A stretch of 64,000 nt of DNA, taken from positions 1 to 64,000 of the forward strand of contig NZ_BOOQ01000035.1 of NCBI RefSeq assembly GCF_016863315.1, read 5' to 3'. Source of the stretch: Planotetraspora silvatica. Its GTDB lineage: Bacteria; Actinomycetota; Actinomycetes; Streptosporangiales; Streptosporangiaceae. Positions 14,122-19,948 of the stretch are shown one piece after another; the stretch's first letter is position 1, and each line of letters starts with the position of its first letter. A model generated the notes under the pieces. That model was given only the letters and a program-made list of their open reading frames with translations. It made no database searches and was not told where the DNA came from. A program made the translations under genes and the position numbers.

Positions 14122-15525
14122 TCACGGTTCGAGACCCCGGAGCGCGACCCCGAAGCGCCGGACGCCCTCGCCCAACTCGGCGAGGGTGACGGCCGCGATA
14201 TGGGTCAGCCGGAGCCGGGGGCCGGGCGGCTCGGAGGGGTAGTAGATCCGTCCGGGGCTGACCAGGACGCCCTCCCGGCGTGCCGCCTCCACGAGCATCG
14301 CCTCGTCGGTCTCCTGGGGAAGCCGCAACCAGACGTGCAGGCCTCCACGCGGGACGAGATGGACCTCCACCTCGGGGGCGTGCAGGGCCAGGCCGGTGAG
14401 AAGCGCCTCCTGCCGGACGTCGACCTCGTGCCCGACCGCCGCGATGTGCCGGCGCCATCCGGGTGAGCCGACGAACTCGAGGGCGGTCTCCTGGAGTGGC
14501 CCGGCGACGAAGAAGGACTCGACGACCTGGCTCGCCCGCAGACGCCGGGCGGCCGGGCCGCGCGCGATCAGACCGGCCACCCGGAGACTCGGCGCGGTGA
14601 TCTTGCTCAGCGACAGGATGTGGACGACCGTGCCGTGCCGGTCGAGGGTCACCATGGGCGGCGGCACCGGGCCCCGCGTGAGATATCTCGCGTAGTCGTC
14701 CTCGATCACGAAGGCTCCGGCCGCCGCGGCGACGGCCAGCACCTGTTCCCTGCGCTCGAGGGGCAGCGTCGCCCCGGTCGGATTGTGCAGTGTGGGCTGG
14801 CAGAGGAAGACCCGCGCGCCCGTGAGCGCGAAGGCCTCCGCCAGCAGGTCGGGCCGCACGCCGTCGACGTCGACCGGCACCGCCGTCGCCCGCAGCCCGG
14901 CCGCCTTTGCGGCTGCGAGCGCACCCGGATATGTGGGGGTCTCCACCAGCACGGCCTCGCCGGGGGCGGCCAGTGCACGGAAGGCGTGGGTGAGCGCCGA
15001 CTGGCCTCCGCTGACCACGAGGACGTCGCTCTGCGTCACCGTGCCGGCCACTTCGCTCGCGAACCACCGCCGCAGGTCGGGCAGGCCGCTGAGGGGCGGC
15101 ACCGCCCAGCTTCCCGGTCTCCGTACGGCTCTCGCCCCCGCAGCGGACAACTCCCGCACCGGCCGGAGTTCCGGATTCAGATAGCCGCCCGTCAACGGGA
15201 TCACACCGTCCGTCGGCTGTGCGAGCAGGCTCACGACACCCGAGTCGTCCACGACCCGGTCCCCGAGTGAGACGGTCTGCCACGACAGGTCCGGGGCCTC
15301 GGCCGCGGGCGTGCGGACAGAGGTCACGAACGCTCCGCTGCCCGGCCGGGTCACCACGCGCCCTTCCGCGGCGAGTTGGGCGATGGCCCGGGAGACCGTC
15401 ACCGGACTCACCCCGTGACGGCGCATGATCTCCCGGCTCGACGGCAGTCGCTCGCCGGGCCGCGACTTCTCCACCTCTTTCCGGAGGATCGCGGCAAGAC
15501 GCACGATACTGCTATCGTCATTCAT
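14122..15525 (-). CDS. MocR-type GntR/aminotransferase transcriptional regulator
   Basis: N-terminal GntR winged helix (LPSSREIMRRHGVSPVTVSR, AEGRVVTRPGSGAFV) fused to a fold-type-I aminotransferase domain. The PLP region contains NPTGA, VIEDDYARY and SLSKITAPSLRVAG, where the Lys would form the internal aldimine. 467 aa is standard. Such regulators sense PLP or amino-acid derivatives and often control a divergent transporter. The ATG is at 15525-15523 and shares bases with the ATG of the divergent EamA gene. A TATTGT hexamer just upstream suggests a leaderless transcript. Confidence 0.9.
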   Translation of the reverse strand: MNDDSSIVRLAAILRKEVEKSRPGERLPSSREIMRRHGVSPVTVSRAIAQLAAEGRVVTRPGSGAFVTSVRTPAAEAPDLSWQTVSLGDRVVDDSGVVSLLAQPTDGVIPLTGGYLNPELRPVRELSAAGARAVRRPGSWAVPPLSGLPDLRRWFASEVAGTVTQSDVLVVSGGQSALTHAFRALAAPGEAVLVETPTYPGALAAAKAAGLRATAVPVDVDGVRPDLLAEAFALTGARVFLCQPTLHNPTGATLPLERREQVLAVAAAAGAFVIEDDYARYLTRGPVPPPMVTLDRHGTVVHILSLSKITAPSLRVAGLIARGPAARRLRASQVVESFFVAGPLQETALEFVGSPGWRRHIAAVGHEVDVRQEALLTGLALHAPEVEVHLVPRGGLHVWLRLPQETDEAMLVEAARREGVLVSPGRIYYPSEPPGPRLRLTHIAAVTLAELGEGVRRFGVALRGLEP

Positions 15526-15546
15526 GAAGACTGACAATAGCGCTAT
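15503..15546. promoter_or_regulatory. Divergent MocR/EamA operator pair
   Basis: Two palindromes flank the shared start codons: ACGATA-CTGC-TATCGT at 15503-15518 and ATAGCGCTAT at 15537-15546. GATACT (15505-15510) could be the -10 for the rightward gene, and TATTGT (minus strand, inside 15536-15545) the -10 for the leftward gene. The arrangement suggests autorepression by the MocR protein plus control of the transporter. Confidence 0.55.
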
Positions 15547-16543
15547 CGCCTCTCCGCCGGTAGCGCTGCACATGGCGGCGGACCGGCGACGCGCCTGGCG
15601 GGGCACTCTGCTCGCGGGGATCGGAGTGATCGCGTTCTCCGGGTCGTTTCCCGCCACCGTCTTCGCGATGCGCGGCCTCGATCCCTATCTGGTGGCGATC
15701 GGGCGCGCCGCCTTCGCGTCGATCGTGGCCGTGATCTGCCTCAAGGTGGCGGGCGCGCCCCTCCTGCCGCCTCGTGCGCATCTCCGCTCGTACGGTCTGA
15801 TCGTCCTCGGGGTGGTCGTGGGCTTCCCGTTGTTCAGCGGGCTGGCCCTGCACAGTGGCGCGAGCACGGCGCACTCCGCGGTCGTCATCGGGTTGTTGCC
15901 GGCGGCGACCGCCGCCTGCGCCGTCCTGCGGGCGGGGGAACGCCCGCGGGTGCTCTTCTGGCTCGCGTGCGCCGGGGGAGTGGTGTCCATCACGGCGTTC
16001 ACCCTCACCAGGGGGAGCGGGGAGTTCGCGGGCGCCGACCTGCTGCTCGTCCTCGCCCTGCTCTCGGCGGCCGTCGGTTACACCGAGGGCGGCCGGTTGG
16101 CCCGTGCGGAGCCGGGCTGGCGGGTCATCTCGTACGCGCTGGTCATGGCGGCCCCCCTCACGGTGCCCGCGACCGTCGTCCTTGCGCTGGTGACCGATCC
16201 CCGGCTCACCGCCGTGTCCCTGGCGGGCTTCGCCTACGTGAGCCTGATCTCGATGTTCCTCGGCTTCATCCCCTGGTATGCCGGGCTCGCCATCGGGGGG
16301 ATCGCCCGTGCCGGGCAGGTCCAGTTGACGCAGCCGCTCCTCACCCTCGTCTGGGCCTGGCTGCTGCTGGACGAGCGGTTCGGCGTCGCGACCGTCGTGG
16401 CCGCGACCGCCGTCCTCGTCTGCGTCGCGGTGAGCCAGGGCAGCCGGAGGGGCGCCGATCCCGGGCGGGAGCGAGGGCTGCGGGCCCGCGCCCGGCGACG
16501 GTCGCTGCCGGACACGGGCGAGAGCGGAGCCGGAAGGGCTTGA
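15524..16543 (+). CDS. EamA/DMT superfamily transporter
   Basis: 339-aa membrane protein with about ten hydrophobic segments in two EamA repeats; the first repeat opens GTLLAGIGVIAFSGSFPATVFAMRGLDPYLVAIGR-like (split here: GIGVIAFSGSFPATV, AMRGLDPYLVAIGR) and the second ends LTLVWAWLLLDERFG. DMT exporters of this type move amino acids or metabolites outward. The ATG at 15524 is used; ATG at 15572 (MAADRRR) is an alternative giving 323 aa with a conventional short N-terminus. Divergent from, and probably regulated by, the MocR protein. Confidence 0.85.
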   Translation: MKTDNSAIASPPVALHMAADRRRAWRGTLLAGIGVIAFSGSFPATVFAMRGLDPYLVAIGRAAFASIVAVICLKVAGAPLLPPRAHLRSYGLIVLGVVVGFPLFSGLALHSGASTAHSAVVIGLLPAATAACAVLRAGERPRVLFWLACAGGVVSITAFTLTRGSGEFAGADLLLVLALLSAAVGYTEGGRLARAEPGWRVISYALVMAAPLTVPATVVLALVTDPRLTAVSLAGFAYVSLISMFLGFIPWYAGLAIGGIARAGQVQLTQPLLTLVWAWLLLDERFGVATVVAATAVLVCVAVSQGSRRGADPGRERGLRARARRRSLPDTGESGAGRA

Positions 16544-16608
16544 ATCGTGTAACAGGTCGGCGCAGGATAGGGCTGAAACTGTCACACCATACGAGCGGCG
16601 GTGGAGCG

Positions 16609-17631
16609 ATGACGGACGTCACGATTCCCGAAGGCGGTTTCTGGCCCGCGCCCGAGGTGCCGCAGCCGAACATCTACCCGATGGAGTGGCGGGTCGAGAC
16701 GGCGAAGCTGGCGGCGATCTACGAGAAGTCGAAGCGGATGGTGTGGAATCCCGCCGACCTCCCCTGGGACCTGCTCGATCCCGCGGCGTTCACCCGTGAG
16801 CAACGGCTGGGGATCATGTACTGGTTCTCCGTGCTGGCCAACTTCGACGCGTCGGGTCCCGCCGTCTTCGCCCGCGCGACGATCCAGGCGTTCGAGAAGC
16901 ACGAGGAGGATCCCGTCCGCAAGTGCTTCTTCTCGATCACCCGTGACGAGATGAACCACGAGGAGTGTTGCCAGCGGTCGATCTCCCGGCTGTGGCCGGG
17001 CGGGCCGCTCGGCTGGGAGCCGTCCACCGACCTGGAGCACGCCGCGCACAACAACATCGGCTGGCTCTACCACAACGGCGGCCGTTACTGGACGGGCTAC
17101 AACGCGGCCGTGGGGAAGTACTCGCTGGCCGTGCTCTTCACCAGCTTCATGATGGGGGAGATGGCGGCCTCGACGTTGTTCCGGGGCATGGCCGGCGCCA
17201 CCGGCCACCCCCTGTTCTCCGAGATGTTCCACAAGATCGGCCGGGACGAGTCGCGGCACCTGCAGATCTGCATGACGATCCTCGAGAACGAGTGGCCGGG
17301 GCTCACCGACGACGTGCGCAGCCTCATCACCAGGCAGCTACGGGCCGGTTTCGTGTTCCTGTCGATGATCCTCTGGGAGCCGCCGGAGGGCTTCTGGGAG
17401 CTCCCGCCGTACTTCCTGCACAACCACCGGGTCCTGATGGACCACGCGCGGGACGCCGGTCTCGGCGTGCTGTCCTACGACGAGCAGGCGGAGAACTGGC
17501 GGATCGCGATGGCACGCGTCCGGGTGATCGTCGAGCGGTGGGGGATCGAGTTTCCCGCGATCCCCGAACTGGACATCGAGGGCGTCGCGGTCGACGTGAT
17601 CGACCCCGAGGACATCATTCCGGTGTTCTGA
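16609..17631 (+). CDS. R2-like diiron (ferritin-superfamily) protein, possible oxidase
   Basis: 340-aa helical protein. Its putative metal ligands follow the ribonucleotide reductase R2 pattern rather than a bacterioferritin: D80 (ANFDASG), E114 and H117 (RDEMNHEE), E184 (MMGEMAAS), E214 and H217 (GRDESRHLQI). In E. coli R2 the set is D84, E115/H118, E204, E238/H241. The position of the R2 radical Tyr122 (His118+4) corresponds here to C121, so it is unlikely to be a functional RNR subunit, and no nrdA is adjacent. More likely a diiron oxygenase or ligand-binding oxidase of unknown substrate. GGTGGAG precedes the ATG. Appears monocistronic. Confidence 0.7.
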   Translation: MTDVTIPEGGFWPAPEVPQPNIYPMEWRVETAKLAAIYEKSKRMVWNPADLPWDLLDPAAFTREQRLGIMYWFSVLANFDASGPAVFARATIQAFEKHEEDPVRKCFFSITRDEMNHEECCQRSISRLWPGGPLGWEPSTDLEHAAHNNIGWLYHNGGRYWTGYNAAVGKYSLAVLFTSFMMGEMAASTLFRGMAGATGHPLFSEMFHKIGRDESRHLQICMTILENEWPGLTDDVRSLITRQLRAGFVFLSMILWEPPEGFWELPPYFLHNHRVLMDHARDAGLGVLSYDEQAENWRIAMARVRVIVERWGIEFPAIPELDIEGVAVDVIDPEDIIPVF

Positions 17632-18273: not shown

Positions 18274-18356
18274 ACCTGTACAGGCGCCGCCTCTTGGCGT
18301 GATCTGCAATACACGTGGCGTGGACGCCATGCCTCCCCTCTGGCCACCATGGGTCC

Positions 18357-19391
18357 ATGGAACGGCGTGTCGTGATCGTGGTCTTCGATGGCTTTCAACT
18401 GCTCGACCTGGCGGGTCCGGCGGACGTGTTCGCGACCGCGACGTTGCTCGCGGCCGAGTACGGCTATCGCATCGAGATGACCGCAGTGCGGGCCGGTCAC
18501 GTGTCGGCGCAGAACGGGATCACGACCGTCGTGGAGACCCCGCTCGACCAGGTCGCGGGGCCGATCGACACGCTCCTGGTCGTGGGCGGCCCGTCCGCGC
18601 AGAAGCACCGGCGTGATCGGGACCTGGTCGGGGGAGTCGCCCGCCTGGCGTCGGTGTCGCGCAGGGTCGCCTCGGTCTGCAGCGGCGCCTTCCTCCTCGC
18701 GGAGGCCGGACTGCTCGACGGCAGGCGGGCGACCACGCACTGGCTGACGGCGTCCGAGTTGGACGCCGAATATCCCGAGGTCGAGGTGGACGCCGACCCC
18801 ATCTACATCAAGGACGGGGACGTCTGGACCTCCGCCGGAGTCACCGCCGGGGTGGACCTCGCCCTCGCTCTCGTCGCGGAGGACCACGGCCACGCGCTCG
18901 CGCGGGACATCGCGTGCGGGCTCGTGGTCTACCTGCACAGGCCCGGTGGGCAGAGCCAGTTCAGCACCGCGATGCGGGCCGTCGTCCCCCGTCTGGAGCC
19001 TCTACGCGAGCTTCAGGCGTTCATCGACGCCAACCCGGCGGGAGATCTCAGCGTGCCCGCTCTGGCGCGGCGCGCGGGGATGAGCGAGCGCCACTTCTCC
19101 CGCGTCTTCACCGAGCAGACGGGCCTGTCGCCCGGCCGGTACGTCGAGCGGAGCAGGGCCGACATCGCCCGGAGGCTGCTCGAGGTCACCGCCCACCCTC
19201 TGGACCGGGTGGCGCGGGAGTCGGGGCTCGGGGCGCCGGAGACCCTCTATCGCGTCTTCCGCCGTCACTGGCGCATCTCGCCCGGCGACTACCGTCGCCG
19301 GTTCCAGTCGAAGGAGAACCGATCGTGCACGTCGCCATCCCCCTCTACCCCCGCTTCACCGCCCTCGACGCCGTCGGGCCGTACACGGTGA
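18357..19391 (+). CDS. GlxA-type regulator: DJ-1/PfpI domain plus AraC HTH
   Basis: N-terminal DJ-1/PfpI-like domain with the nucleophile-elbow cysteine C108 (SVCSGAFLLAEAGLL) and RRATTHW, then an AraC/XylS double HTH from about residue 220 (DLSVPALARRAGMSERHFSR, PLDRVARESGLGAPETLYR). 344 aa from ATG 18357; a further upstream ATG would add 14 residues. Its 3' end overlaps the next gene by 67 nt, and that gene encodes a stand-alone version of the same DJ-1 domain. Ligand unknown; the family includes activators of amino-acid and amine catabolism. Confidence 0.9.
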   Translation: MERRVVIVVFDGFQLLDLAGPADVFATATLLAAEYGYRIEMTAVRAGHVSAQNGITTVVETPLDQVAGPIDTLLVVGGPSAQKHRRDRDLVGGVARLASVSRRVASVCSGAFLLAEAGLLDGRRATTHWLTASELDAEYPEVEVDADPIYIKDGDVWTSAGVTAGVDLALALVAEDHGHALARDIACGLVVYLHRPGGQSQFSTAMRAVVPRLEPLRELQAFIDANPAGDLSVPALARRAGMSERHFSRVFTEQTGLSPGRYVERSRADIARRLLEVTAHPLDRVARESGLGAPETLYRVFRRHWRISPGDYRRRFQSKENRSCTSPSPSTPASPPSTPSGRTR

Positions 19392-19948
19392 TGGCGTTCG
19401 CGCCGGGCTGCACGGTCACCTTCGTGGCCGCCCAGGCCGGGCCGGTCGTCGACGACAGGGGAAGTCTCAGCCTGACGGCCACCGCGTCCCTCGCGGACGT
19501 CCCGAGGCCAGATGTGATCATCGTTCCCGGTGGTCCCGGCACGGCCGAGGCGCTGGAGGACGCCGACCTGGTCGCCTGGATCGCCGAGGCGCACGAGCAC
19601 ACCCTGTGGACGACGTCCGTCTGCAGCGGCTCGTTCCTGCTGGGCGGGGCGGGCCTGCTGAAGGGCAGGCGGGCGACCACCCACTGGGGGTGGCTGGAAC
19701 ATCTCGCCGGCTTCGGCGCCGAGCCCGTCAGCGAGCGTGTCGTCGTGGACGGGAAGATCGTCACCGCGGCGGGCGTCTCGTCCGGCATCGACATGGCGCT
19801 GACCCTGCTCGCGCGCCTCAGCGACGTGACGACGGCGCAGGCCGTTCAACTGGCGATGGAGTACGACCCCGAACCGCCGTTCGACGCGGGTTCGCCGGCG
19901 ACCGCACCCGAAGGACTGGCCGACCGGGCCCTGCGGCTGATCAGCTGA
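19325..19948 (+). CDS. DJ-1/PfpI family protein
   Basis: 207-aa single-domain protein with C100 in the nucleophile elbow (TSVCSGSFLLGGAGLLKG) followed by RRATTHWGW, close in pattern to isonitrile hydratase InhA and to the DJ-1 domain of the preceding GlxA-type regulator. The GTG at 19325 has AAGGAG 6 nt upstream, located inside the upstream gene, so the two are translationally linked by a 67-nt overlap. Probably an enzyme or sensor acting with the regulator; the exact reaction is not deducible. Confidence 0.82.
   Translation: MHVAIPLYPRFTALDAVGPYTVMAFAPGCTVTFVAAQAGPVVDDRGSLSLTATASLADVPRPDVIIVPGGPGTAEALEDADLVAWIAEAHEHTLWTTSVCSGSFLLGGAGLLKGRRATTHWGWLEHLAGFGAEPVSERVVVDGKIVTAAGVSSGIDMALTLLARLSDVTTAQAVQLAMEYDPEPPFDAGSPATAPEGLADRALRLIS

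Follow-up and report, generated by a model that had tools for sequence, protein, structure and literature searches.

A possible single-subunit aryl-CoA epoxidase in an uncharacterised family of R2-like diiron proteins with Cys in place of the radical tyrosine

Several described dimetal proteins offer points of comparison for the protein analysed here. Methane monooxygenase hydroxylase (MMOH) is a monooxygenase whose chains (PDB 1mmo, 4gam and others) read D143-E144-I-R-H147-T-H-Q-C151, and the question of what a cysteine does at the radical-tyrosine position of R2-type proteins has so far been bound mostly to the large methane monooxygenase complex. R2c, another member of this group, lacks the radical-storing tyrosine found four residues after a ligand histidine (His+4). 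In the R2-like oxidase R2lox, Val72 and Tyr162 are the cross-link residues (PMC4118035), and AurF-type N-oxygenases carry a seventh ligand histidine, four residues before the last ExxH motif (PMC12154687). BoxB is a monomeric diiron protein that epoxidises aryl-CoA (PMC4498308); the same review describes a division of PaaZ between two proteins, an aldehyde dehydrogenase and a hotdog hydratase.

We analysed a stretch of 64,000 nucleotides from Planotetraspora silvatica (contig NZ_BOOQ01000035.1, positions 1 to 64,000), referred to here as the window. A first-pass annotation had described one of its open reading frames (ORFs) as encoding an R2-like diiron protein that carries Cys at the position equivalent to Tyr122 of R2. 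Our results support an R2-like dimetal carboxylate protein with this cysteine that is not a subunit of ribonucleotide reductase (RNR), and translation confirmed the limits of the frame and every residue named in it (Table 1). The motifs are D80, DEMNHEECC (D113-E114-M-N-H117-E-E-C120-C121), GE184 and DE214SRH217. Among GTDB contigs, the counterpart in P. mira is 99% identical.

Table 1. Positions in the window of the diiron gene, its predicted functional residues and its upstream elements
Feature	Position	Strand	Remarks
R2-like diiron oxygenase gene (putative)	16609..17631	+	340 aa, ATG start, TGA stop
D80 codon, first predicted metal ligand	16846..16848	+	D in 100/100 core, E in 4/4 sister clade
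E114-M-N-H117 codons, predicted ligands two and three	16948..16959	+	invariant
C120 and C121 codons	16966..16971	+	C121 invariant, C120 variable outside Actinomycetes
E184 codon, predicted ligand	17158..17160	+	invariant
E214-S-R-H217 codons, predicted ligands	17248..17259	+	invariant
C221 codon (H217+4), second core-invariant Cys	17269..17271	+	Ala/Phe in sister clade
Promoter-like TTGAAT-N17-CAGGAT	16540..16568	+	directly upstream; putative function
Inverted half-sites GTGTAACA (16547-16554) and TGTCAC (16580-16585)	16547..16585	+	flank -10 box
EamA-type transporter ORF	15425..16543	+	upstream; named from translation; syntenic in 73 relatives' loci

We assessed conservation in 104 distinct homologues drawn from GTDB contigs, whole genomes and plasmids, comprising 100 members of a core family and 4 of a sister clade (33-37% identity). 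All six predicted ligands (D80, E114, H117, E184, E214 and H217), together with C121, were present in 100 of 100 core homologues. Because of this complete conservation, the ligand pattern is not a product of chance, and its order and spacing are those of RNR R2, as had been noted. A second cysteine, C221, was likewise found in 100/100 core homologues; it sits four residues past ligand H217, such that C121 and C221 lie at equal spacing after the first and second ExxH motifs, respectively. C120, by comparison, was Cys in 89 of the 100, in the Actinomycetes branch only, and V, M or L in the rest. The first-pass annotation had drawn attention to a cysteine pair at 120 and 121: both residues are there, but the pair that is conserved is C121 with C221. 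In the four sister proteins, Glu takes the place of D80, residue 121 is Ala or Ser, and residue 221 is Ala or Phe; C121 and C221 were thus lost together. Since this clade has Ala/Ser at 121, the cysteine is not essential to the wider group. Alignment searches of samples of hundreds of actinobacterial genomes gave bit scores of >560 for core members, about 265-290 for sister proteins and at most about 30 for everything else; as judged by these scores, the family is sharply bounded.

The first-pass annotation had also suggested, with reservation, that Cys was unknown at the Tyr122 position. This suggestion proved wrong: MMOH D143-E-I-R-H-T-H-Q-C151 and D113-E-M-N-H-E-E-C-C121 of the window protein share DExxHxxxC (the MMOH residues are those of the chains in the PDB file). 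In toluene monooxygenase hydroxylase and in phenol hydroxylase, the position equivalent to C121 is occupied by other residues. When the family was aligned with the host's own R2 by hhalign, C121 fell on the R2 tyrosine, with a score that is not significant. The position was thus assigned correctly, and the cysteine is precedented; the earlier observation is therefore correct, but its novelty was overstated, as Cys at this position is known already, in a monooxygenase. MMOH and the other PF02332 monooxygenases resemble the window protein further in their carboxylate-rich dimetal ligands. They differ from it in that the window protein is a single 340-aa subunit, whose gene neighbourhood showed no beta, gamma or regulatory protein, and has Asp, not Glu, as its first ligand.

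Two AlphaFold2 predictions, made with 35 and 32 alignment rows, yielded all-helical models (pLDDT 80.9 and 83.2, pTM 0.87). In the second model, helices 63-97, 101-128, 173-197 and 201-228 bear D80, E114/H117/C121, E184 and E214/H217/C221, respectively, while the first model places D80 in a break between two helices; model confidence is low around helix A, which surrounds D80 (pLDDT about 65). For both models, Foldseek searches of the PDB returned R2lox as the top match, followed by R2 proteins, ACP desaturases and ToMO hydroxylase. The R2lox match had a probability of 1.00, an E value of about 5e-5 to 9e-5 and a TM score of about 0.46-0.55; Foldseek TM scores were only about 0.45-0.55, with an rmsd near 9 Å. 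These matches to predicted models set the fold class, and the surroundings of C121 are accordingly described at the level of the fold only.

Sequence searches of the PDB with the family gave nothing credible. No NCBIfam model scored above its cut-off for the window protein or any of four relatives tested, and the window protein had no match to PF02332 (Phenol_Hydrox) or PF05138 (PaaA/PaaC); PF02332 was absent from genome G000 as well. An hhalign comparison of the family with one phenol hydroxylase homologue gave no significant score, PADLOC gave no match, and no relative was found in viral contigs. We rejected membership of the R2lox, PF02332 and PaaA/C families; the Pfam AurF match is borderline. 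Across the Pfam, NCBIfam and PDB comparisons, we found no characterised family that includes the window protein; membership of such a family is what the first-pass annotation had named as one finding that would overturn its reading. As far as these models reach, the family is without a Pfam or NCBIfam assignment of its own, and we found no publication on it in the open-access papers searched.

The relation to RNR is one of fold class and of ligand order and spacing. Two relatives match PF00268, the class I R2 family, but below its 33.6-bit cut-off, and the sole match in the host genome is a different protein, on contig C10 (E 5.6e-79), which has an R1-like ORF beside it and Tyr at His+4 (EEAVHVQFY). 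Because this ordinary R2 and its R1-like ORF lie on C10, the window protein is an R2-like protein distinct from the host's R2, and it has no R1 partner. The earlier statement that nrdA is not nearby holds, and nrdB is absent from the vicinity too. No core member has a radical-storing tyrosine at ligand His+4, where C121 replaces it throughout.

The gene neighbourhoods of relatives point to a catabolic role. In Variovorax, in Vitreoscilla and in 7 of 7 strong relatives from the order of genome G081 (from an actinobacterial lineage that lies outside the class of the window; one contig, 99% complete), the diiron gene adjoins a reductase gene. The reductase has, by Pfam, an N-terminal Fer2 domain followed by FAD_binding_6 and NAD_binding_1, and its nearest NCBIfam models are BenC and MmoC, a further likeness to the methane monooxygenase system. 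The Variovorax cluster also encodes PaaN (TIGR02288, above cut-off), an enoyl-CoA hydratase-type protein (ECH), a thiolase, a ligase, a MaoC protein whose match is to PaaZ's C-terminal domain, and a 2-oxoacid oxidoreductase that carries the annotation indolepyruvate ferredoxin oxidoreductase. PaaN and the MaoC protein correspond to the division of PaaZ described in PMC4498308. On the Variovorax plasmids (L005, L007), an FAD-linked oxidase, an indolepyruvate ferredoxin oxidoreductase family protein, an ABC transporter and the Paa-like pathway occur together, and this cluster looks like one for aryl-lactate or arylpyruvate catabolism. Locus L126 holds a ligase, a PaaJ-like thiolase, PaaI (TIGR02286, above cut-off), a TetR regulator and PaaG-like and PaaH-like proteins; L175 has the same set plus MaoC. 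In the sister clade (L182-L184) the order is diiron protein, MaoC, ECH, ligase.

Genome G081 contains PaaZ (897.7 bits against a cut-off of 562.8), and no PF05138 match was found on its whole contig. Because PaaZ is present and PF05138 absent, the diiron protein with its reductase is the obvious candidate, judged by gene content, for the epoxidation step in this organism. L126 and G081:C1:97513-99519 (L187) belong to a nearly complete actinobacterial genome in which PaaZ and PaaGHIJ-like genes are found but PaaA/PaaC are not. The family shares with PaaABCE and the BoxAB epoxidases the reaction and pathway position that we propose for the relatives, and with BoxB the property of being a single-subunit diiron enzyme. 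It differs from PaaABCE/BoxAB in that no family model matches it; BoxA, moreover, carries two 4Fe-4S clusters. The relatives' reductase resembles PaaE in being a 2Fe-2S/FAD protein, but PaaE has its ferredoxin domain at the C terminus and the relatives' reductase at the N terminus. On these grounds we consider that the relatives in catabolic clusters are probably aryl-CoA epoxidases. A less likely reading, yet the one among the alternatives to which we give most weight, is that the relatives hydroxylate a free aromatic acid or an accessory substrate that feeds the CoA pathway, and do not epoxidise a CoA thioester. The Vitreoscilla plasmid argues for it: there the diiron-reductase pair lies beside a complete paaABCDE set, flanked by homoprotocatechuate-type genes, and because that complete set adjoins, the pair is not simply a replacement in that organism. 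The lack of PaaA/PaaC in G081 despite its PaaZ and PaaGHIJ-like genes, and the sister clade's diiron-MaoC-ECH-ligase operon, both fit CoA-ester epoxidation better.

We regard it as unlikely that the family consists of AurF/CmlI-type N-oxygenases acting on an amine. PF11583 (AurF) was indeed the best Pfam match for every member tested, and two relatives just exceed its 29.6-bit cut-off (L126 at 30.7, L182 at 34.7), with the window protein below it at 18.8. The seventh histidine of the N-oxygenases is missing, however, as position 210 is Ile or Val in all family members. The family differs from AurF/CmlI also in its Cys at the Tyr122 position, and the relatives' clusters are catabolic CoA pathways and not ones for amine biosynthesis.

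Slightly less probable still is a radical-generating role, in which Cys121 would carry or relay a thiyl radical, or would undergo an oxidative modification such as the cross-linking of R2lox, on behalf of a partner enzyme. The place of C121 at the Tyr122 position, its invariance in the core, shared with C221, and R2lox as the nearest solved fold would all accord with such a role. Against this, MMOH has Cys at the same place, no R1-like radical partner is adjacent to the gene, and the sister clade, which sits in a CoA-pathway context, has replaced both cysteines. The presence of the residue in MMOH and its loss in the sister clade speak against an obligatory cysteine radical. So does the relatives' conserved partner, which is an electron donor, a reductase of the kind expected for a monooxygenase; we therefore rejected a Cys-radical R2 as the main reading. 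Equally improbable is an R2lox-type manganese/iron or diiron oxidase acting on a bound long-chain ligand, since, despite the top Foldseek match, identity to R2lox is only 16-18%, the NCBIfam model gives 11.9 bits against a cut-off of 194, the first ligand is Asp instead of Glu, and the cross-link residues are absent, with G/A83 and S179 at the V72 and Y162 positions and R192 at that of Y175 (offsets counted from the ligands).

Taken as a whole, the evidence favours an O2-activating diiron monooxygenase of the ferritin/R2-type fold, not an RNR radical subunit, with an aryl-CoA substrate probable in the relatives' clusters; we hold this with reasonable, though by no means full, confidence, and we infer that the family as such is one of single-subunit diiron monooxygenases. 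In the mechanism that we propose, D80, E114, H117, E184, E214 and H217 would hold two irons, and an external FAD/2Fe-2S reductase would reduce the dimetal centre. The reduced irons would then activate O2, and a small molecule bound by the enzyme would undergo a two-electron oxygenation. C121 would form part of the pocket wall beside the irons, like Cys151 of MMOH, and would not serve as a stable radical store. In relatives outside Streptosporangiales and the allied actinomycetes, the substrate would probably be an aryl-CoA thioester (phenylacetyl-CoA or similar) that is epoxidised, after which PaaG-like, MaoC-like and PaaN/PaaZ-like enzymes would open the ring; in those clusters, one diiron subunit and one reductase would take the place of the PaaABCE complex. 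The gene of Planotetraspora and other Streptosporangiales, which stands alone with its own promoter, may have kept the same chemistry.

More tentatively, and at somewhat less than even odds in our judgement, we suggest an undescribed family of single-subunit diiron aryl-CoA epoxidases with a methane monooxygenase-like pocket cysteine and a dedicated MmoC/BenC-like reductase, which would replace PaaABCE non-orthologously in some bacteria and whose orphan Streptosporangiales branch would perform a different oxidation. If this is true, ring opening of the phenylacetyl-CoA type would be possible without the four-protein PaaABCE complex, and an oxygenase of 340 residues that works with one reductase would lend itself far more readily to study and use. 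A natural single-subunit system would then also be available for examining the role of a cysteine at the radical-tyrosine position in diiron chemistry. The larger point is that this uncharacterised family of diiron oxygenases may contain a single-subunit aryl-CoA epoxidase.

The window's own branch differs in context. The diiron gene of Streptosporangiales, like that of several further actinomycete families, is an orphan: no reductase of this kind lies close to it. We found no close homologue of the relatives' reductase in the host genome (the best, at 32%, is a flavohaemoglobin-like protein), the other host reductases examined are of C-terminal-ferredoxin types, and PaaA/PaaC and PaaZ had no matches in this genome. 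Because the host lacks PaaA/PaaC, PaaZ and a close reductase homologue, the substrate and electron donor of the relatives cannot be transferred to the window protein.

We compared loci for the best 80 of 505 related loci in GTDB contigs. Among these, the diiron protein is 86-99% identical, well above the values for the two neighbouring gene products, the MocR-type regulator and the EamA-type transporter. The promoter-like element, as TTGAAW-N17-CAGGAT, lies upstream of the diiron gene in 60 of the 80 loci, and a regulon search with it gave a single match in the host genome, the diiron gene's own; the element therefore suggests dedicated regulation of this gene. The inverted half-sites at the element, with the consensus GTNAC/GTCAC, form a possible operator. 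From this conservation, the diiron gene appears clearly to be functional and separately controlled in the Streptosporangiales branch.

The region 14122-16543 holds the MocR-type regulator gene, divergent, and the EamA-type transporter gene, a pair that keeps its synteny with the diiron gene in 73 relatives' loci; the start listed for the EamA ORF may be too far upstream. Co-transcription with the transporter was considered as a clue to function and is weakened by the private, conserved promoter-like element between the two genes. On the other side of the diiron gene (18315-19948) lie two neighbouring DJ-1/GlxA-like ORFs, of which the first has an AraC-type tail; only a few relatives have them.
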